NCBI GenBank assembly: GCA_002869615.1
Contig: PKUH01000035.1
Location: 1-36,173 of the forward strand
Source: Desulfuromonas sp.
Lineage (GTDB): Bacteria; Desulfobacterota; Desulfuromonadia; Desulfuromonadales; UBA2294
Direction: 5' to 3'
Length of the DNA: 36,173 nucleotides
Below the pieces are notes generated by a model. That model saw nothing but the letters and a program-made list of their open reading frames with translations, had not been told where the DNA came from and searched no databases. Below are positions 360-9,588 of this stretch, in pieces; within the stretch, counting starts at the first letter, position 1; each line of letters opens with the position of its first letter. A program made the translations under genes and the position numbers.

Positions 360-1448
360 TTATCCGTTGTTCTTCTGAAATTCCTTCATGAAATCTGCCA
401 GCTTTTCGATCCCGGCCATCGGCATGGCGTTATAGATCGAGGCGCGGATACCACCGACGCTGCGATGGCCCTTGAGGGCGTAAAGGCCCTGCTCTCCCGC
501 TTCGGCAAGGAACTTTGCCTCGAGCTCCTCGCTCGGCAGGTTGAAGCTGACGTTCATGGTTCCACGGAATTCCGGCTTGATAACACCGCGGAAATAATCA
601 TCGCCGTCGATAAGATCGTACAGCACCTTGGCCTTCTGCTCGTTGACCTTCTCGATGGCAGCGACGCCACACTGCTCCTGCAGCCACTCGAGAACGAGTC
701 CGGTGACGTAGATGGCGAAGGTATTGGCGGTATTGGTCAGCGAGTTGTCCTTGGCGCACTGCTCGTAGTTGAGCAGCACCGGGGTCTGGTCGCTGGCGTG
801 GCCGAGCAGATCTTCCCTGATCACAACAATCGCGGTGCCGGAGGGGCCGAGATTCTTCTGCAAACCGGCATAGACGCAACCGAACTTGCTGTAGTCGAGC
901 TGGCGCGACAGGATCTCCGAGGTCTGATCGGCGATCAGCGGAACATTACCGGTTTCCGGGAATTCATTGTAGCGCGAGCCGTAAATCGTGTTGTTGCTGG
1001 TGATGTGCAGGTAGGCCGCATCCTGATCAACCATGTCGGCAGAGATCGTCGGAATATGGTCGTAGTTGCTGTCGGCGCTCGAAGCGATGATCTTGACATC
1101 GCAAAAGTTACCAGCGTCCTTGTTGGCGAGTTTGGCAAAGTTGCCGGTTTCGGCATAAAGGCATTTCTTGCTGGCGGAACGGGCCGCCAGGTTCATCGGC
1201 AGGGCCGAGAACTGCATCCGGGCGCCACCGTGAACAAACAGGATCTTGTAGTTGTCCGGCAGGTTGGTCAGTTGACGGAATCGTTCCTGGGCCTCAAGCA
1301 GAACTTTTTCAAACTGCCTGGCCCGATGGCTGACCTCGATCACCGAAACACCGAGGTTCTCGAAATTGAACCATTCTTCCTGAATCTTCTGCATAACCGG
1401 TTCCGGCAACATCGCCGGGCCGGCTCCGAAATTATAGACTTTCGCCAT
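360..1448 (-). CDS. serC: Phosphoserine aminotransferase
   Basis: Converts 3-phosphohydroxypyruvate plus glutamate to phosphoserine (serine pathway, step 2); the family also acts in vitamin B6 synthesis. The 362-residue length is standard. The N-terminus has the family signature NFGAGPAMLPEPV. The PLP lysine sits in YAGLQKNLGPSG (about residue 195), and the C-terminus has the conserved KGHRSVGGIRASIYNAM substrate-binding stretch. It is a cytoplasmic class V aminotransferase. It lies 33 nt downstream of serA, which makes the preceding pathway enzyme, so the two are almost certainly co-transcribed. The ATG is preceded by an AGGAGAG-like ribosome-binding site. A strong terminator follows. No oddities seen. 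Confidence 0.97.
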   Translation of the reverse strand: MAKVYNFGAGPAMLPEPVMQKIQEEWFNFENLGVSVIEVSHRARQFEKVLLEAQERFRQLTNLPDNYKILFVHGGARMQFSALPMNLAARSASKKCLYAETGNFAKLANKDAGNFCDVKIIASSADSNYDHIPTISADMVDQDAAYLHITSNNTIYGSRYNEFPETGNVPLIADQTSEILSRQLDYSKFGCVYAGLQKNLGPSGTAIVVIREDLLGHASDQTPVLLNYEQCAKDNSLTNTANTFAIYVTGLVLEWLQEQCGVAAIEKVNEQKAKVLYDLIDGDDYFRGVIKPEFRGTMNVSFNLPSEELEAKFLAEAGEQGLYALKGHRSVGGIRASIYNAMPMAGIEKLADFMKEFQKNNG

Positions 1449-1481: not shown

Positions 1482-2651
1482 TTAAAGCAGCCGCACCTTG
1501 ATGACCCCGTCGATCGCCTCGAGAGCTTCGATCAGATCCGGCTTCGGTTCGCGTTCGACATCAATAAGGTTGTAGGCAACATCGTCACGACTCCTGTTGA
1601 TCATGTCGATAACGTTATGATCGCGATCCGATAGTATGTTGAGGACCTGGTTAAGCATCTTCGGCACGTTGCGGTTGGAAAAGGCGATCCGGTAGCCGCC
1701 GGCGCGCTCCATTGAAATATTCGGGAAATTGACCGAATTCCTGATATTGCCGTTCTCGAGAAAGTCGATCAGCTGCTCAGCCACCATCACGGCACAATTA
1801 TCCTCGGCTTCCTCGGTGCTGGCTCCGAGGTGCGGCATCGCGATGATCTTGTCGTTGCCGATCAGTTCACGGACCGGGAAATCGGTGACATAGCGCCGCA
1901 ACAGACCCTTGTCGAGAGCCTTGAGCAGGGCATCGTTATCGACCAGCTTCTCCCTGGAAAAGTTGAGCAGGACCGAATCTTTCTTGAAACTGTCGACCGA
2001 TTCGCTATTGATCATGTTGCGCGTTGCCTCGAGCACCGGCAGGTGCAGGGAGACGTAATCGGAGCGCGACAGCAACGAATGCAGGTTCTCCATGCGTTTG
2101 ACTTCGCGCGGCAGCCGCCAGGCAGCATCGACCGACAGGGCCGGGTCATAACCGACGACCTTCATACCGAGGGTCAGACCGGTTTCGGCAACCTGCGATC
2201 CGATCGCGCCAAGGCCAACAACGCCGAGGGTTTTGCCTTTCAGTTCGGAACCGCCGTAAGCCTTCTTGCCGCCTTCGACCACCTTGTGCAGGGCCTCTTC
2301 GTCAAGACCCTCGCCTTCTTTCTGCACATAGTTGATGCCGCCAATGATGTCCCGGGCCGACAACAGCATTCCGGTGATGGTCAGCTCCTTGACCGCATTG
2401 GCATTGGCGCCTGGGGCATTGAAAACGACGATGCCCCGATCGGTACAGCTTTCAACAGGGATATTGTTGACTCCGGCACCGGCCCGACCGATCGCCTTGA
2501 CCGAATCGCCGATATCGTCCGACTGCAGCACGTGGCTGCGCAGCATAATGGCATCGGGGTGGCCAAGTTCGCTCGCTACTTCATATTTGTCGCGGGAAAA
2601 CTTGTCCAATCCCTTGACCGAAATTGCATTGTAGGTCAAAACCCTGTTCAT
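1482..2651 (-). CDS. serA: D-3-phosphoglycerate dehydrogenase, short type
   Basis: Oxidises 3-phosphoglycerate to 3-phosphohydroxypyruvate with NAD, the first step of serine synthesis. The protein has 389 residues. The Rossmann signature VVGLGAIGSQVA lies near residue 145, followed by an acidic residue in GYDPAL as expected for NAD. The NFSRE segment supplies the substrate-binding/catalytic Arg and PHLGAST the catalytic His. The usual DVFxxEP segment is replaced by TDFPVREL, as I recall for the short SerA form of clostridia and Geobacter. The C-terminal 75 residues look like an ACT domain (NVPKMLNQVLNILSDRDHNV), suggesting allosteric control, perhaps by serine. The start is preceded by a strong CAGGAGG site. 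serC follows. Confidence 0.93.
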   Translation of the reverse strand: MNRVLTYNAISVKGLDKFSRDKYEVASELGHPDAIMLRSHVLQSDDIGDSVKAIGRAGAGVNNIPVESCTDRGIVVFNAPGANANAVKELTITGMLLSARDIIGGINYVQKEGEGLDEEALHKVVEGGKKAYGGSELKGKTLGVVGLGAIGSQVAETGLTLGMKVVGYDPALSVDAAWRLPREVKRMENLHSLLSRSDYVSLHLPVLEATRNMINSESVDSFKKDSVLLNFSREKLVDNDALLKALDKGLLRRYVTDFPVRELIGNDKIIAMPHLGASTEEAEDNCAVMVAEQLIDFLENGNIRNSVNFPNISMERAGGYRIAFSNRNVPKMLNQVLNILSDRDHNVIDMINRSRDDVAYNLIDVEREPKPDLIEALEAIDGVIKVRLL

Positions 2652-2797: not shown

Positions 2798-3067
2798 TTA
2801 CTTGACGACCTTCAGGTTCCCTTTGCCACCCCCTGCCGGCGGTGCGGTTTCCGGCGGTTCCGGTGGTTTCTCATCGATATCGAGCTCGAGGCCCGGCAGG
2901 GTTCCATCCCGGGCCATTTTTGCAATCGCATCAGCGATGGTCAGGCACTGTTTTGTGCAGACCTTGCGGACCGGGCACATATCGCAATCGGCCTGGCCGC
3001 CGGCTGCCCGCAAGGCATGGATCACCAGCTCGACCGATTCGATCTGATTCAATGGGACAAGATACAT
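2798..3067 (-). CDS. Small Cys-cluster protein, function unknown
   Basis: An 89-residue protein I cannot assign. A compact CDMCPVRKVCTKQC cluster (C-x2-C-x4-C-x3-C) in residues about 29-42 could bind zinc or an Fe-S centre. The C-terminal 25 residues are rich in Pro and Gly (KPPEPPETAPPAGGG) and probably disordered. No signal peptide or membrane segment is seen, so it is likely cytoplasmic. The ATG has a GAGAGG site 8 nt upstream. It sits between aroF and serA on the same strand, 56 nt after aroF, so it may be carried on the aroF transcript. The Cys spacing and ribosome-binding site argue that it is real; the overlapping plus-strand frames have neither. Confidence 0.72.
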   Translation of the reverse strand: MYLVPLNQIESVELVIHALRAAGGQADCDMCPVRKVCTKQCLTIADAIAKMARDGTLPGLELDIDEKPPEPPETAPPAGGGKGNLKVVK

Positions 3068-3123: not shown

Positions 3124-4143
3124 TCAGATCTTTTTACCGGCAACCCTGGCAAACTCCGCCAGCTTCTTCATCATCGCGGCAAAGTCCTCGGGCCGTAGCG
3201 ACTGCGGCCCGTCACTGGTCGCCTTCTCCGGATGCGGGTGAACCTCGACAATCAGGCCGTCGCAGCCGGCCGCAACCGCTGCGTAGCACATCGACGGCAC
3301 CAGGGACGCATGACCGGTGCCATGCGACGGGTCGATAATCACCGGCAGGTGGGTCTGCTCCTTGAGCACCGGCACGGCCGATATATCGAGGGTGTTGCGG
3401 GTCGCGGTCTCGAAGGTGCGAATACCCCGTTCACAGAGGATGACCCGCTGGTTTCCTTCGCTGAGAATATACTCGGCGCTCATCAGAAACTCCTGGATGG
3501 TCGTCGCCATGCCGCGCTTGAGCAGGATCGGCTTGTCGAGCTGGCCGAGCATTTTCAGCAAGGCAAAATTTTGGGTATTGCGGGCCCCAACCTGCATGAT
3601 ATCAGCATACCTGGCGACCAGCTCAACGTCACGTGGATTCACCACCTCGGTGACAATCGGCAGGCCGGTCTCTTTACGGGCCTGCGCCAAAAGCTTAAGC
3701 CCCTCCTCCTCCATTCCCTGGAATGAGTAAGGGCTGGTCCGCGGTTTGAAGGCGCCGCCGCGCAGCACTGTCGCCCCGGCCGCCTTGACCGCTTGCGCCG
3801 ATTCCATGATCTGTTCCTCGCTCTCGACTGCGCAGGGGCCGGCCATGACAACCAGTTGTTCGCCGCCGACGCTCAACCCGGACTGGATTTCGACAGCACT
3901 CGGCTCCGGCCTGACCTCCTTGCTCGCCAGCTTGTAAGGCTTGAGGATCGGTACGACGTTATCAACGCCCGGCATCGACTCAATCGACTGCAACACCGCC
4001 TTGCCCCGTTCGTCGCCGATGGCGCCAACGACATTGCGGGTCGAGCCGTAGATAACATGCGGCGTGTACCCGAGTTCGGTAATCCTTTTCTCGACATCAG
4101 CCAGTTCATCCTTGCTGGCTCCGGACTGCATGACAATAATCAT
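3124..4143 (-). CDS. aroF: 3-deoxy-7-phosphoheptulonate (DAHP) synthase, type I-beta
   Basis: Condenses phosphoenolpyruvate and erythrose 4-phosphate into DAHP, the first committed step to Phe, Tyr and Trp. It has 339 residues: an N-terminal ferredoxin-like regulatory domain of about 70 residues ([20 protein letters not shown] onward), then a TIM barrel beginning at [10 protein letters not shown]. Also visible are [16 protein letters not shown], the KPILLKRG segment and the metal-binding region around [10 protein letters not shown]. This architecture is that of the Thermotoga maritima enzyme, in which the N-terminal domain mediates Phe/Tyr feedback inhibition. The ATG has a GGGAG site 8 nt upstream. 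Upstream lies a Phe-rich attenuator (4231-4445), so control by Phe is probably both transcriptional and allosteric. Confidence 0.96.
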
Positions 4144-4230: not shown

Positions 4231-4272
4231 AAAATGAAAAACCACGGAGAGAACGATGTCTGCCCGTGGTTT
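4231..4272 (-). terminator. Attenuator terminator upstream of aroF
   Basis: On the minus strand AAACCACGG (4272-4264) pairs perfectly with CCGTGGTTT (4247-4239) around a 16-nt loop. The T-rich run TTTTTCATTTT follows. It lies after the leader-peptide stop (4296) and 87 nt before the aroF start, the classical place for an attenuator. Its left arm overlaps the antiterminator pairing at 4258-4269. Confidence 0.88.
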
Positions 4273-4326
4273 GATTGCCTGTAAGTTCTGATCCTTTAAT
4301 CCAGCAACAGTTCGCCCCGAGCAGAC
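4258..4326 (-). promoter_or_regulatory. Predicted antiterminator of the Phe attenuator
   Basis: On the transcript GUCUGCUCGGGG (4326-4315, from the third base of leader codon 21) can pair with CCACGGGCAGAC (4269-4258). Eleven of twelve positions pair, one of them G-U. The second arm includes six bases of the terminator's left stem, so the two structures exclude each other. A ribosome stalled at leader Phe codons 10-15 would leave the first arm free and favour read-through. One that reaches the stop codon at 4296 would cover or displace it and allow termination. This model is inferred by hand pairing; no folding energies were computed. Confidence 0.75.
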
Positions 4327-4388
4327 GGCCTAAAGAAAAAGCCGAAGCCAAAAAAGAAAAACCAGAAGCTGGAAAACGAGTGTTGCAT
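4296..4388 (-). CDS. Phe-rich leader peptide of the aroF attenuator
   Basis: A 30-codon reading frame, too short for usual gene finders. Ten of its 30 residues are Phe, at positions 5, 8, 10-13, 15 and 17-19, around one Trp at 9. The core reads FWFFFFGFGFFFRPS. The ATG is preceded by GGAG 9 nt upstream, and a promoter starts transcription about 22 nt before it. It ends 24 nt before an intrinsic terminator. This mirrors the leader peptides of E. coli pheA and pheST, whose translation senses charged tRNA-Phe. Here the downstream gene is DAHP synthase. The peptide itself probably has no function beyond being translated. A longer frame across 4148-4405 in another phase is judged spurious. Confidence 0.88.
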   Translation of the reverse strand: MQHSFSSFWFFFFGFGFFFRPSARGELLLD

Positions 4389-4416
4389 AAAAGTACTCTC
4401 CACAAGATGAAATGCG

Positions 4417-4445
4417 ACTTTAGCAGAGCCCCCTGGCATTGACAA
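4417..4445 (-). promoter_or_regulatory. Sigma-70 promoter of the aroF leader
   Basis: On the minus strand TTGTCA (4445-4440), a 17-nt spacer and TAAAGT (4422-4417). Transcription would begin near 4410, giving a short 5' end before the leader-peptide ATG at 4388. Confidence 0.75.
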
Positions 4446-4453
4446 CAATTTTC

Positions 4454-4482
4454 TTGACAGGCTTTGGCCGTTTCGTTATAAA
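4454..4482 (+). promoter_or_regulatory. Strong sigma-70 promoter of tRNA-Phe
   Basis: TTGACA (4454-4459), a 17-nt spacer, then TATAAA (4477-4482), 15 nt before the mature tRNA 5' end. It is back to back with the aroF leader promoter: the two -35 boxes are 8 bp apart. Confidence 0.85.
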
Positions 4483-4497
4483 CGGAGCTTCCGACTT

Positions 4498-4573
<76 letters not shown>

Positions 4574-4630: not shown

Positions 4631-5332
4631 CTAGACCCCGAGATAGCGTTCCTGCAGCATCTCGTTATCGGCAATCTCGTCGGTACTTCCCGACCAGACC
4701 ACCTGGCCTTTTTCCATTATATAGTGCCTGTCGGCGAGCTTCATCAGCGCCTGCAGGTTCTTGTCGATTACCAGGATCGATTGGCCTCGCCTTTTGAGGA
4801 TGCCGAGACCGTGCCAGATTTCCTTGCGCACCAGCGGTGCCAGTCCCTCGGTCGCTTCGTCGAGAATCAGCAATTTGGGAGTAATCATCAGGGCCCGGAC
4901 AATGGCCAGCATCTGCTGTTCACCGCCGGACAACTGGTTGCCGAAATGGCTTCGCCGCTCGCCGAGGCGGGGAAAAATATCGAGGACCTCGTCGAGGGTG
5001 TAGGGCTCGTTGCGGCCGCCATAGTGGGCGGCGGCGACCATGATGTTTTCATGGACGGTCAGGTTGGGAAAAATCTGCCGGCCCTCGGGGACGAAACCGA
5101 TCCCCTGCCGTGCCACCTTGTAGCTCGGCAGACGATGAATATCGGTACCGTTGAAAGATATCCGGCCATGCCGCACCGGGGTCAGCCCCATGATCGATTT
5201 GACCGATGTGCTCTTGCCCATGCCGTTGCGCCCGAGCAGGGTCACCACTTCGCCGTCCTGCACCTCGAAGCTGACGCCGAACAGTGCCTGGCTGCTGCCA
5301 TAGAAGGTCTCTATCTGATCAACGATCAGCAT
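4631..5332 (-). CDS. livF: Branched-chain/LIV-type ABC transporter ATPase LivF
   Basis: One of two cytoplasmic ATPases powering the liv transporter. It has 233 residues, normal for LivF. Walker A is GRNGMGKST (about residue 34), the ABC signature LSGGEQQMLAIVRAL and Walker B LLILDEATEGLAP; the H-loop His appears to be replaced in ILVIDKNLQAL, as is common in LivF. The FYGSSQALFGVSF beginning is typical of the family. It overlaps livG by 7 nt and is the last gene of the operon, followed by the tRNA-Phe terminator on the opposite strand. Confidence 0.95.
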   Translation of the reverse strand: MLIVDQIETFYGSSQALFGVSFEVQDGEVVTLLGRNGMGKSTSVKSIMGLTPVRHGRISFNGTDIHRLPSYKVARQGIGFVPEGRQIFPNLTVHENIMVAAAHYGGRNEPYTLDEVLDIFPRLGERRSHFGNQLSGGEQQMLAIVRALMITPKLLILDEATEGLAPLVRKEIWHGLGILKRRGQSILVIDKNLQALMKLADRHYIMEKGQVVWSGSTDEIADNEMLQERYLGV

Positions 5333-6084
5333 GCTTCGTCCCCATCTCCGAGATAGGCCTGACGGACCAGGTCGTTGCCGCGAATTTCTTCAACCGTTCC
5401 GGTGGCGATGATCTCGCCGTAGACCAGAACCGTGATCCGATCAGCGAGGGCGAAGATCGCCTCCATATCATGTTCGACCAGGAGGATCGTCATCTCCTCC
5501 TTGAGCCGGCGGATCAGCTTGGAGAACTCAACCGTACCGCCCGGGCCCATACCGGCCATTGGCTCGTCTAGCAACAACAGTCTGGGTTTGCAGGCCAGGG
5601 CCATACCGACCTCGAGCTGCTTCTTTTCGCCATGCGAAAGATTGCCGGCCAGGCTGTCGGCCCGCTCGCTCAAATCGACCCGTTCAAGGGCCGGTGCCAG
5701 CTCCCGGCGCAGCTGCGGCACATCCAGGCTTTTTCGCCAGAAGCGGAAGCTGTGACCGTGCTGGGCCTGGATGGCGAGGAGCAGATTCTCGGTAACGGTC
5801 AGGCGCGGAAACACCGAGGTGATCTGGTAGGAGCGTGCCATCCCGAGACGCGACCGGCGATGCGGGGGCAGGCGGGTGATCTCACGCCCGGTGAAGAAGA
5901 TTCCGCCGCGGTCGGGAGCCAGGTCGCCGGCCAGCAGGTTCAGCAGGGTCGTCTTGCCGGCACCGTTCGGGCCGATCAGGGCGTGGACTTCACCGGCGGC
6001 GACAGTTAGATCGAGATCCTGGCAGGCATTGACCGCGCCAAAACTCTTGCTCAACCCCGTGGTGCGCAGAATCGGTTCAGCCAT
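5326..6084 (-). CDS. livG: LIV-type ABC transporter ATPase LivG
   Basis: The second ATPase of the transporter, 252 residues from the chosen start. Walker A GPNGAGKTT, signature LSHGEKKQLEVGMAL, Walker B LLLLDEPMAGMGP and the H-loop in ILLVEHDMEAIF are all intact. I place the start at 6084 (MAEPILRTTGLSKSFG), which overlaps the livM stop by 8 nt as usual in liv operons. An in-frame ATG at 6123 would add 13 residues with no family resemblance. It partners with LivF on the cytoplasmic face of LivHM. Confidence 0.94.
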   Translation of the reverse strand: MAEPILRTTGLSKSFGAVNACQDLDLTVAAGEVHALIGPNGAGKTTLLNLLAGDLAPDRGGIFFTGREITRLPPHRRSRLGMARSYQITSVFPRLTVTENLLLAIQAQHGHSFRFWRKSLDVPQLRRELAPALERVDLSERADSLAGNLSHGEKKQLEVGMALACKPRLLLLDEPMAGMGPGGTVEFSKLIRRLKEEMTILLVEHDMEAIFALADRITVLVYGEIIATGTVEEIRGNDLVRQAYLGDGDEAC

Positions 6085-7072
6085 GGCGCTTCTCCCGTCC
6101 GGCCAGGATGCCATAAAGACCATGCCGGGCGAACAGCACCACGAGGATCAGCAACGGCCCGAAAAAAACAAGCCAGTGCTCGGTGTACATCGACAGGACC
6201 TCCTCAAGCAGAAGAAACGCGGCGGCGCCGAGGACCGGCCCGTAGAGGGTGCCGGCGCCGCCGAGCAGGACCATCACCAGGATAATCCCGGAGCGGGACC
6301 AGTGCATCAGGCCGGGGCTGACGTACTCAACCTGGTTGGCGATCAGGGCGCCGGCCAGTCCGGCAGCGGCGCCGGCCAGAACAAAGCTGAGCAGCTTGTA
6401 TCGATAGGTCGAAAAGCCGATCGACTGCATCCGTTTTTCATTCTCACGACAGCCGCGGATCACCATGCCGAAGCGCGATTGCACCAGGCGGCCGGCCAGA
6501 TAGAGGAAGGTGAACAAAAGCCCCAGGCAGACATAATAAAATTGCGTATCATCGCCAAGGTCGAGCCCGGGCAGACTGTTGCGGGCAAAGAGGGTGATCC
6601 CGTCATCGCCGCCATAGGCTTCAAGTGAGACGAAAAAGTAGTAGAGCATCTGGGCGAAGGCGAGGGTGATCATGATGAAGTGCATGCCGCTGGTGCGCAG
6701 GCTTAAACTGCCGATGATCGCGGCAAGCAGAGCCGCAATCAGGATAGCCACCGGCCAGGTAATCAGGGCACTCTCACTTCCCGGTACCAGGAAAGGCCAG
6801 GCAATCAAGGGGGTCCCTTCAAAGTCGTGGTAAGCGAGGATGCCGACCGCATACGCCCCGGCCCCGAAAAAAGCGGCATGCCCCAGACTCACCAGGCCGC
6901 CGTAACCGAGGATCAGATCAAGGCTGGCTGCCGCCAGGGCGTAAATCAGGATGCGCGAGAAAAGTGAAACAAGATAGGGTTCGCCGGCGATTGATGCGTA
7001 GAGCGGGAGCAAGAGCAGCAACAGCGCACCACTACTGATGGCAATGTTTTTTCGATTGAAGTATTCAGGCAT
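6077..7072 (-). CDS. livM: LIV-type ABC transporter permease LivM
   Basis: Inner-membrane permease of 331 residues with about eight to ten hydrophobic segments. The family motif GYGGLVSLGHAAFFGAGAYA lies near residue 58, and the loop GCRENEKRMQSIGFSTYRYK is the conserved coupling region that contacts the ATPases. The last residues are basic (LAGREKRHG). It starts 22 nt after livH and overlaps livG. Confidence 0.95.
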   Translation of the reverse strand: MPEYFNRKNIAISSGALLLLLLPLYASIAGEPYLVSLFSRILIYALAAASLDLILGYGGLVSLGHAAFFGAGAYAVGILAYHDFEGTPLIAWPFLVPGSESALITWPVAILIAALLAAIIGSLSLRTSGMHFIMITLAFAQMLYYFFVSLEAYGGDDGITLFARNSLPGLDLGDDTQFYYVCLGLLFTFLYLAGRLVQSRFGMVIRGCRENEKRMQSIGFSTYRYKLLSFVLAGAAAGLAGALIANQVEYVSPGLMHWSRSGIILVMVLLGGAGTLYGPVLGAAAFLLLEEVLSMYTEHWLVFFGPLLILVVLFARHGLYGILAGREKRHG

Positions 7073-7094
7073 AGCCGTTCACTTCCTCTCAGCC

Positions 7095-8009
7095 TCAGGC
7101 ATGCCCGGGCAAAAGCCCTCGCGGTCGCCAGACCAGGATAACCGCCATCAGGATGTAGATTGACATCGATGCGACCGAGGCGGCGACACCGTCAGCGTGA
7201 GCCGTCGCAAGGAACAACCGGAAGAAAGCCGGCAAAAAGGCACGGCCGAGTGTATCAACCATACCGACCAGGATCGCCCCGAGGAAGGCGCCGCGCACCG
7301 AACCGATGCCACCGATAACGATGACGACAAAAGTCAGGATCAGAATACTTTCGCCCATACCGGCCTCGACCGCCAGGATCGGCCCGGCCATCACTCCCGC
7401 CAGCCCGGCAAGAAGAGTTCCGAGTCCGAACACCAGGGTGTAAAGCGTCCTGATGTTGATCCCGAGGGCTCCCGCCATCTCGCGGTTACTCGCCCCGGCG
7501 CGGATCTGCATACCGATACGGGTCCGGCTGAACATCAGGTAGAGAAAGAGGGCGACCAGCAATCCGACGACAATGACTGCGATGCGGTAGCTCGGGTAGG
7601 GGATGCCCGGAATCAGCTCGACCGTCCCCGAAAGCCAGGTCGGCACATCCATGAACAGTGGCTGTCGCCCCCAGATGATCCGGGTCAGCTCGTTGAAAAA
7701 CATGATCAGACCGAAGGTGGCGAGGACCTGTTCGACATGGTCCTTCTTGTAAAGGCGGCGTAAAACGGTCACTTCGACCAGCATGCCGACCAGCGCCGCC
7801 GCCGGCAGGGCGGCGGCAAGGCCAAGCAGAAACGAGCCGCTGCGAGCCGTCACCGTCGCCCCGACATACGCTCCGATCATATAGAACGAGCCGTGCGCGA
7901 GGTTGATGACCTGCATGATGCCAAAAACCAGGGTCAATCCGGCCGACATCAAAAACAGCGTCACCCCGAGCTGCAGGCCGTTGAGAATCTGCTCGATAAA
8001 AAGAAGCAT
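7095..8009 (-). CDS. livH: LIV-type ABC transporter permease LivH
   Basis: Inner-membrane permease of 304 residues, hydrophobic throughout. It begins with the family-typical QILNGLQLGVTLFLMSAGLT and carries the motif FGIMQVINLAHGSFYMIGAY. The coupling loop is RAGASNREMAGALGINIRTL. It pairs with LivM to form the membrane channel. The gene is 103 nt downstream of livK, and a GC-rich hairpin (8050-8083) in that gap probably lets livK be expressed more than the membrane components. Confidence 0.95.
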   Translation of the reverse strand: MLLFIEQILNGLQLGVTLFLMSAGLTLVFGIMQVINLAHGSFYMIGAYVGATVTARSGSFLLGLAAALPAAALVGMLVEVTVLRRLYKKDHVEQVLATFGLIMFFNELTRIIWGRQPLFMDVPTWLSGTVELIPGIPYPSYRIAVIVVGLLVALFLYLMFSRTRIGMQIRAGASNREMAGALGINIRTLYTLVFGLGTLLAGLAGVMAGPILAVEAGMGESILILTFVVIVIGGIGSVRGAFLGAILVGMVDTLGRAFLPAFFRLFLATAHADGVAASVASMSIYILMAVILVWRPRGLLPGHA

Positions 8010-8049
8010 GGAAACCTGTCAGGAACCTCTTGCCGGAAGCGGATAAAGC

Positions 8050-8083
8050 CGGGCACGCTCTCCCGTGAAGGAAACCGTGCCCG
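8050..8083 (-). promoter_or_regulatory. Intra-operon hairpin between livK and livH
   Basis: CGGGCACG pairs perfectly with CGTGCCCG across an 18-nt loop, in the only sizeable gap of the liv operon. There is no proper T run after it on the minus strand (GCTTTATCC), so it looks more like an mRNA 3'-end stabiliser or weak attenuator than a full terminator. Confidence 0.6.
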
Positions 8084-8112
8084 ATAAGTCATCATTTTGA
8101 CCGCAACAGAGC

Positions 8113-9282
8113 CTAGTTCATCTTGCAATCTCCGACATAGGTGTTGGCATGGTCGGTAAAAACAGCCTTGAGGGTCTTGTTGGTAAAGCCGCCCTTGCCA
8201 TCCTCAACAACCTCGCGGATGTAAAGATTCTGGACCGGATGCTGGTTGGCGGCAAAAGCAAACTTGCCGCGCACCGAATCGAAATCGGCCTTACGGACAG
8301 CACTGCGCAGCTGCTCGAGTTTCGCCACATCACCGCCGACGCTCTTGAGGGCGCTGCCGATCAGACGGGCTGCTTCGTAACCCTGGCTGGCATAGAGGGT
8401 TGGTGTGCGGCCATAAGCTGCGCGAAAGGCTGAGACGAACTGCTTGTTGGCCGGATTGTCGAGATCGTGGGTCCACTGCGAGCCGTTCTTGACGCCGAGC
8501 GCGGCGGCGCCGACGGCGCCGAGCAGCCTCTCATCAAAGGAAAAGGCCGGCCCGAAGACCGGAATTGTTTTGTTCAGCCCGGACTGGGAAAACTGCTTGA
8601 GAAAGTTAATCCACATGCCGCCGGGGAGGAAGAAAAACACGCCATCCGGTTTGGCGGCTCTGAGGGCAGCGATCTCGGCCGCATAGTCCGACTGCCCGAG
8701 CTTGGTGTAGACCTCGCCGGCGATATTGCCGGTATAGTAGCGCTTGAAACCGGCCAGGTGGTCTTTGCCCGCCGGGTAATTGGGTGCCAGCAGGTAGACA
8801 TTCTTGAAGCCTTCGTCACTGACGTACTTGCCGACCACCTCATCAAGGTTGTCATTCTGGTAGGCGACATTAAAATAGTTCTCGTTGCACCCCTTGCCGG
8901 CAAGGGCCGAAGGACCGGCATTCGGGCTGATGTAAAGCACTTCGCTGCGCACAACCTTGGGCACCACGGCCAGGGCGACGTTTGAGAAGATGATCCCGGT
9001 CATGATCTTGACGCCATCGCGCTTGATGAAGCGGTTGGCAATCTGCTTCGCTTTGCCCGGGTCACGGCCGTCATCCTCAACCAGGAGCTCGACCGGGATG
9101 CCGCCGAGCTTCCCGTCTTCCTGGTCAATCGCCAGCTTGAAGCCATCACGTACTTCTTCGCCGAGATAACCGGCCTTGGTCGAAAGCGTCGTCACCATAC
9201 CGATCTTGACCGGCCCGGCTGCCAAAGCCGCCGATGGCAGTACCATCGCCAAAACAATAAATAACATGCACAGTTTCTTCAT
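8113..9282 (-). CDS. livK: LIV-type ABC transporter substrate-binding protein
   Basis: Periplasmic binding protein (Peripla_BP_6 family) of 389 residues. A signal peptide (MKKLCMLFIVLAMVLPSAALAA) precedes the mature start at about residue 23. The mature chain begins with the family pattern GPVKIGMVTTLS and ends in a Cys-containing tail, GDCKMN. The start at 9282 has an AGGGGGC site upstream; a frame extending to 9417 adds 45 residues ahead of the signal peptide and is rejected. The ligand cannot be read from the sequence. Members of this family bind branched-chain amino acids, amides or aromatic acids, and the gene symbol is by position only. Confidence 0.9.
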   Translation of the reverse strand: MKKLCMLFIVLAMVLPSAALAAGPVKIGMVTTLSTKAGYLGEEVRDGFKLAIDQEDGKLGGIPVELLVEDDGRDPGKAKQIANRFIKRDGVKIMTGIIFSNVALAVVPKVVRSEVLYISPNAGPSALAGKGCNENYFNVAYQNDNLDEVVGKYVSDEGFKNVYLLAPNYPAGKDHLAGFKRYYTGNIAGEVYTKLGQSDYAAEIAALRAAKPDGVFFFLPGGMWINFLKQFSQSGLNKTIPVFGPAFSFDERLLGAVGAAALGVKNGSQWTHDLDNPANKQFVSAFRAAYGRTPTLYASQGYEAARLIGSALKSVGGDVAKLEQLRSAVRKADFDSVRGKFAFAANQHPVQNLYIREVVEDGKGGFTNKTLKAVFTDHANTYVGDCKMN

Positions 9283-9588
9283 TTTTGCCCCCTGAGGCTT
9301 GAGATAAAATTTCCGACCAGTGACAGACAACCCGATAATCTGTTCATATTGCCGATCAACCGTAAGCACAACCGGACGTATCTTCGCACAAATCGTCTTC
9401 CTGTTGCAACAGATCACGCAAGCAGAGATCAGGCTCGACTACCCGAAGCGGATCGAAAAATTAATCATTTCCTGAAAAAAGAGGGCCGGCCTGCTGGACA
9501 ATCCTGCTTGATTGCGTTATCACTCAACTCCGCTTTGCGCTGTCGCGACGACAACCAGAGAGACCGCTGCCAGGAACCGCGAGTATCA
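9283..9588. other. Divergent intergenic region with a 12-bp palindrome
   Basis: A 306-nt gap between the divergent livK and EamA genes. It must hold both promoters, but I find no convincing -35/-10 pair. A perfect palindrome CTGTTGCAACAG lies at 9401-9412 and could be a regulator site. The reading frames through the region have no ribosome-binding site or family resemblance. Confidence 0.45.

Follow-up and report, generated by a model that had tools for sequence, protein, structure and literature searches.

The region upstream of the DAHP synthase gene aroF of Desulfuromonas sp. carries a Phe-rich leader ORF, an intrinsic terminator and alternative RNA pairings, which we read, with a probability of roughly 0.93, as a ribosome-mediated transcription attenuator of aroF, of the leader-peptide type, with charged tRNA-Phe as its signal. 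The analysis started from the window, i.e. the whole stretch of 36,173 nucleotides of contig PKUH01000035.1, and was extended to aroF orthologues and to genomes drawn from the phylum. The parts of the leader, their conservation and the covariation of three helices were directly observed.

Anatomy of the aroF leader and its neighbourhood

All the elements that a preliminary description had read from the window (a promoter, a ribosome-binding site, a 30-codon Phe-rich ORF, a terminator and an alternative pairing at 11 out of 12 positions) were found where it had placed them (Table 1). The leader promoter presents a 17-nt spacer and 9 out of 12 consensus matches, and the consensus scan found one such promoter when 0.2 were expected in shuffled sequences. 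The leader peptide contains ten Phe, one Trp and no Tyr among its 30 residues. At the Phe frequency of the window genes, a 30-residue peptide would hold ten or more Phe with a probability of 2.4e-7, and the next Phe-richest of the 524 small ORFs in the window has seven Phe in 49 amino acids. In addition to the elements already described, we found a 1:2 hairpin and a divergent tRNA-Phe gene. The hairpin is short (6 bp) and overlaps the control codons; with it, all four regions of a classical attenuator are present.

Table 1. Features of the aroF locus in the window (positions are those of the window).
Feature	Position	Strand	Details
serC, possibly on the same transcript	360..1448	-	Terminator 341-313 after serC
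serA-like dehydrogenase, possibly on the same transcript	1482..2651	-	Gene reading, terminator scan
89-aa ORF with CX2CX6CX3C	2798..3067	-	Four cysteines; steady aroF neighbour
aroF, DAHP synthase, proposed regulated gene	3124..4143	-	Ferredoxin-like N-terminal domain plus DAHP_synth_1
Covariance model R1 match	4233..4362	-	96 bits; by construction, the sequence being part of the model
Intrinsic terminator	4237..4272	-	5' arm AAACCACGG 4272-4264, 3' arm CCGTGGTTT 4247-4239; T run to 4237; -15.7 kcal/mol
Region 3, antiterminator 3' arm	4258..4269	-	CCACGGGCAGAC; overlaps the terminator 5' arm; pairs with region 2 at 11/12 positions
Leader peptide ORF	4296..4388	-	ATG 4388 to TAA 4296; MQHSFSSFWFFFFGFGFFFRPSARGELLLD
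Region 2, antiterminator 5' arm	4315..4326	-	GUCUGCUCGGGG; sequence, covariation
1:2 hairpin	4326..4344	-	CGGCUU (4344-4339) / AGGCCG (4331-4326); -6.7 kcal/mol
Control codons	4332..4361	-	FFFFGFGFFF; upstream of region 2; expected site of ribosome stalling
Shine-Dalgarno of leader ORF	4398..4401	-	GGAG; sequence, comparison with orthologues
Sigma-70-type promoter of leader	4417..4445	-	-35 TTGTCA 4445-4440, TG-extended -10 TAAAGT 4422-4417
tRNA-Phe(GAA), divergent from leader	4498..4573	+	Only match found in the 98%-complete genome

The folding energy of the whole leader was no better than that of shuffled sequences (z -0.18). An ordinary energy is expected of a bistable switch; significance was taken from the comparison with relatives. 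In the window, the energies of the two states are nearly equal (-22.4 for the terminator plus the 1:2 hairpin versus -22.2 for the antiterminator), as expected for a switch that is decided by the ribosome.

From this anatomy and the established trp/his/pheA attenuation mechanism, modelled in PMC1183508, we infer how stalling, termination and the response to Phe would proceed. RNA polymerase would start near position 4410 and a ribosome would begin the leader peptide. With charged Phe-tRNA available, the ribosome would pass the Phe run and region 2 up to the stop codon, blocking the 2:3 pairing, and the 3:4 terminator would form and end transcription before aroF. When charged Phe-tRNA is short, the ribosome would stall in the Phe run and cover region 1, leaving region 2 free to pair with region 3, so that no terminator would form and aroF would be transcribed. 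The readthrough transcript would include the 89-aa ORF and perhaps serA and serC. If translation were absent, the 1:2 hairpin would form and so would the terminator.

The reach of this control was overstated in the preliminary description, which had placed entry into the whole aromatic pathway under it. The genome carries a second DAHP synthase, 54% identical to aroF and without a leader, and pathway entry would therefore be only partly under attenuator control; no convincing leader was found before this gene, pheA or the two trpE-type genes of the genome. As to the genes downstream of aroF, the proposed extension to the small gene agrees with a conserved linkage, and that to serA and serC does not. 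Across relatives, only aroF and the 89-aa ORF form a steady pair, the latter lying directly after aroF at most loci of the order (~58-76% identity) and matching no Pfam or NCBIfam family; serA and serC vary. Co-transcription of aroF, serA and serC is nevertheless possible in this genome, where the scan found no credible minus-strand terminator in the aroF-to-serC interval.

The tRNA-Phe gene has its own promoter, as read from the sequence (TTGACA 4454-4459, TATAAA 4477-4482), so placed that the promoter elements of the leader and of the tRNA gene stand back to back. Among the 105 orthologous loci for which the available sequence was long enough, 60 have a divergent tRNA-Phe gene within 700 nt; no tRNA of another kind was found at that distance. 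This gene might be part of the circuit, a weaker reading than that of the regulon proposed below, or else might reflect old synteny.

Conservation, covariation and control codons among relatives

We analysed the upstream regions of 114 aroF orthologues, which represent 21 families of the Desulfuromonadales-type order. An aromatic-rich (F/Y/W) leader ORF was present in nearly all of them; it typically begins ~240 nt and ends ~155 nt before aroF, and a terminator followed the leader in 108. The scan found no terminator in the remaining six, some of which correspond to cut contigs or divergent stems. Among the paralogous DAHP synthases (~51-55% identical to aroF), none of the 16 with a candidate ORF had such a leader. 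Judged by these sequences, the leader arrangement before aroF is not due to chance.

The pairing between regions 2 and 3 was examined in the orthologues with a terminator, in which the mean energy was -22.5 kcal/mol for native arms, -19.3 kcal/mol for arms swapped between families and -14.5 kcal/mol for shuffled arms. Many families have identical letters here, which weakens the swap test, and in families f2, f16 and f19 the native pairing could not be separated from the swaps. In several families, the letters had changed on both sides with the pairing kept; family f18 maintains it with unrelated letters (CAUCGACCCG:CGGGUUGAUG). Pairs were then counted in 39 diverse sequences and compared with slid controls. 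The terminator helix was paired in 98.3% of cells with 19 double-change cells, the antiterminator helix in 95.1% with 13, and the 1:2 helix in 82.3% with 10. In all three, both the paired cells and the covariation score exceeded those of every slid control, and the three covarying helices are mutually exclusive. The core reading of the preliminary description, a Phe-tRNA-sensing attenuator of a DAHP synthase, is thus supported by Phe- or aromatic-rich leaders and terminators in almost every relative and by covarying arms in all three helices.

Another hairpin with a T run (AAGGCCGCCGGG..CGGGCGGCCTTTTT) occurs in 74 out of 108 orthologues (e.g. L004, L145 and L179), downstream of the attenuator and before aroF, and is absent from this genus. 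Its letters would permit pairing with region 2, but the 1:2 hairpin uses the same letters and we do not claim this interaction.

Codon usage was determined in the 14 codons before region 2, in the leader frame as compared with the other frames and with shuffled sequences. Aromatic codons accounted for 54% of the codons in the leader frame, 22% and 24% in the other two frames and 24% in shuffles, with in-frame enrichment in 97 out of 101 leaders. Because the enrichment is confined to the leader frame, it is the codons, and not U-richness alone, that have been selected. This bears on the idea that the U-rich stretch is itself an RNA element (for protein or S1 binding, or polymerase pausing) with the Phe codons as a by-product. 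Phe codons are indeed U-rich and TTT is the commonest aromatic codon of the leaders (419 out of 737), but the in-frame enrichment includes TGG and TAC, and leader composition varies with the downstream gene, being Tyr-rich before two transporters and Phe-rich before paaK (see below), so we give this explanation hardly any credence. The small ORF could alternatively encode a working hydrophobic micropeptide with its own short terminated transcript, aroF being separately promoted. The ORF is conserved and has a good ribosome-binding site, as such a gene would; nevertheless, the peptide is free to drift except at its aromatic residues, the frame of its C-terminal part differs from clade to clade with the RNA pairing intact, and a peptide gene has no need of a covarying pairing between the terminator 5' arm and an ORF segment. 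Most clades read the region-2 element as RPSARG and others, in a different frame, as VCPSLRR, and it is therefore the RNA, not the peptide, that is conserved there. Moreover, the consensus scan found no second promoter between the terminator and aroF, and a micropeptide gene is very improbable.

Sensing of tRNA-Phe could also be direct, as in a T-box-like riboswitch. Although the Bacillota orthologues of aroF (L085 and L111) have T-boxes and a tRNA-Phe gene adjoins the leader, the Rfam search returned only tRNA in the window stretch and, apart from the Bacillota T-boxes, no T-box or other leader match among the representative leaders, which makes direct binding the least probable of these alternatives. 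A greater chance, still a small one, belongs to the same attenuator sensing Phe, Tyr and Trp generally, also in this genome. Both Tyr and Trp occur in 88 out of 108 leaders, and most relatives have leaders with codons for all three amino acids, those for Tyr and Trp often lying where stalling would occur. In contrast, the window leader lacks Tyr. Between 9 and 24 nt upstream of region 2, only Phe codons occur in this genus, and the single Trp codon of the window leader, at 35 nt, falls outside this zone and is probably too distant to act. The Phe specificity proposed in the preliminary description would hence apply to this genus, of which a near Phe-only leader is a property, and not to most relatives. 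The comparison points to an ancestral sensor that probably served several aromatic amino acids and was narrowed to Phe in this genus.

A wider set of aromatic leaders

A covariance model, R1, was built from 39 aroF leaders; its Infernal calibration was shortened and its E-values are rough. Within the order, R1 matched 115 out of 136 genomes, nearly always with a single hit; in a sample of 395 genomes of the phylum, it matched 88. It also matched contigs of Thermodesulfovibrionales (L071 and L081). In this genome, R1 gave no second credible copy besides the aroF leader. The window also holds a Liv/Urt-type ABC transporter operon (4631-9417, minus strand), convergent with the tRNA-Phe gene, for which R1 found no aromatic leader.

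We inspected 89 of the phylum matches. DAHP synthases of the aroF class, or of a variant of it, followed 55 of them, and the others preceded DAHP synthases of the E. coli-like class (3), ADTH synthases (8), paaK (9), ABC substrate-binding proteins (11) and other or unclear genes (3). Altogether, the downstream gene belongs to amino-acid-type ABC uptake, aryl-CoA ligation or the synthesis of aromatics in 86 out of 89 cases. The operons, read out and assigned by family searches, include paaK-ACT-livKHMGF, Liv-type importers with CoA ligases, and one that begins with ADTH synthase, DHQ synthase II and pheA and continues with apparent aroE, aroA, aroK and aroC. The mean codon make-up differed with the target: DAHP synthases have mixed F/Y/W leaders, paaK and one importer class have Phe leaders, and another importer class (two cases only) has Tyr leaders.

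Several of these loci deserve separate mention. Operons of paaK, an ACT-domain protein and a Liv-type ABC transporter were found at L308, L309 and L317, and a Phe-rich leader of the R1 family precedes those of L308 and L309, which suggests a role in the acquisition of aryl acids or Phe. The operons of L312 and L313 combine a Liv-type transporter with a paaK-like ligase behind a Tyr-rich leader (YYYYGY and YSYYGY) and are candidates for a Tyr-responsive importer. At L314 and L315, an aromatic leader precedes a shikimate operon headed by an archaeal-type ADTH synthase and DHQ synthase II. The match at L316 (L259) has the leader NFYYFYYYSF and lies upstream of a GNAT-domain protein, not of an aromatic gene; it may be a chance match or a new target.

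These observations make it fairly likely that, in Desulfobacterota-type bacteria, an old leader-peptide RNA element forms an aromatic amino acid regulon that spans the phylum, with F/Y/W codons retuned to the target. As part of this reading, DAHP synthases would respond to Phe, Tyr and Trp, ADTH synthase to Phe and Tyr, and paaK and ABC importers to Phe, or to Tyr. If so, the paaK and Liv-type transporter operons would serve the supply of aromatic amino acids or aryl acids, and the first step of aromatic synthesis could be adjusted without TyrR or TrpR in anaerobes such as metal and sulfate reducers and syntrophs. R1 would then mark further genes under the same control, providing testable functions for paaK-transporter operons and for transporters that resemble branched-chain importers.

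Relation to known attenuators

In E. coli, aromatic amino acids likewise control the DAHP synthases, but aroF, aroG and aroH are regulated there through TyrR and TrpR, which are repressor proteins, and not by attenuation. The gammaproteobacterial Phe_leader, the leader of pheA, has a Phe-rich peptide and follows the 1:2 / 2:3 / 3:4 logic. The aroF leader shares both with Phe_leader (RF01859), which precedes a different gene, pheA. At the gathering cut-off, RF01859 gave no match at the aroF site or anywhere in this genome, and it exceeded the cut-off in one of 14 control genomes. The element family is absent from Rfam and distinct from its Phe_leader. The T-box (RF00230) of the Bacillota aroF likewise senses tRNA charging and controls the orthologous gene, but it binds tRNA directly and has no leader peptide.

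Attenuators before aroF have been described elsewhere. The aroF leader of Corynebacterium glutamicum (aroR; PMC4046766) similarly joins an aromatic leader peptide and an attenuator to a DAHP synthase gene; it belongs to the Actinobacteria and, by its description, has an F-Y-F (Phe-Tyr-Phe) motif in place of the long Phe run found here. The Acholeplasma uORFC-13-1 motif (PMC8632094), likened by its description, also combines a leader uORF containing Phe codons (at least one) with a terminator and a downstream aroF, in a different lineage. Both PMC8632094 and PMC2659441 cite an old proposal of an attenuator for E. coli aroF. Relative to known aroF attenuators, the divergent tRNA-Phe neighbour is a new feature.

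The preliminary description knew of no such arrangement for aroF in this bacterial group, and our literature search likewise found none, although subscription papers were mostly outside its reach and a prior mention is possible; a regulatory survey of the delta-proteobacteria (PMC545781) makes no mention of phenylalanine, aromatic or DAHP. A survey of the leader families then in Rfam (PMC3766115) proposed that amino acid attenuators may have a gammaproteobacterial origin, and the element family described here shows another leader class that is widespread outside gammaproteobacteria. Like trp/his/pheA-type attenuators, the aroF locus combines a control-codon leader, an intrinsic terminator, an exclusive covarying antiterminator and a 1:2 protector hairpin. 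Classical ribosome-mediated attenuation is thus known, including that of aroF in Corynebacterium, while the element family and the proposed phylum-wide regulon are apparently undescribed.
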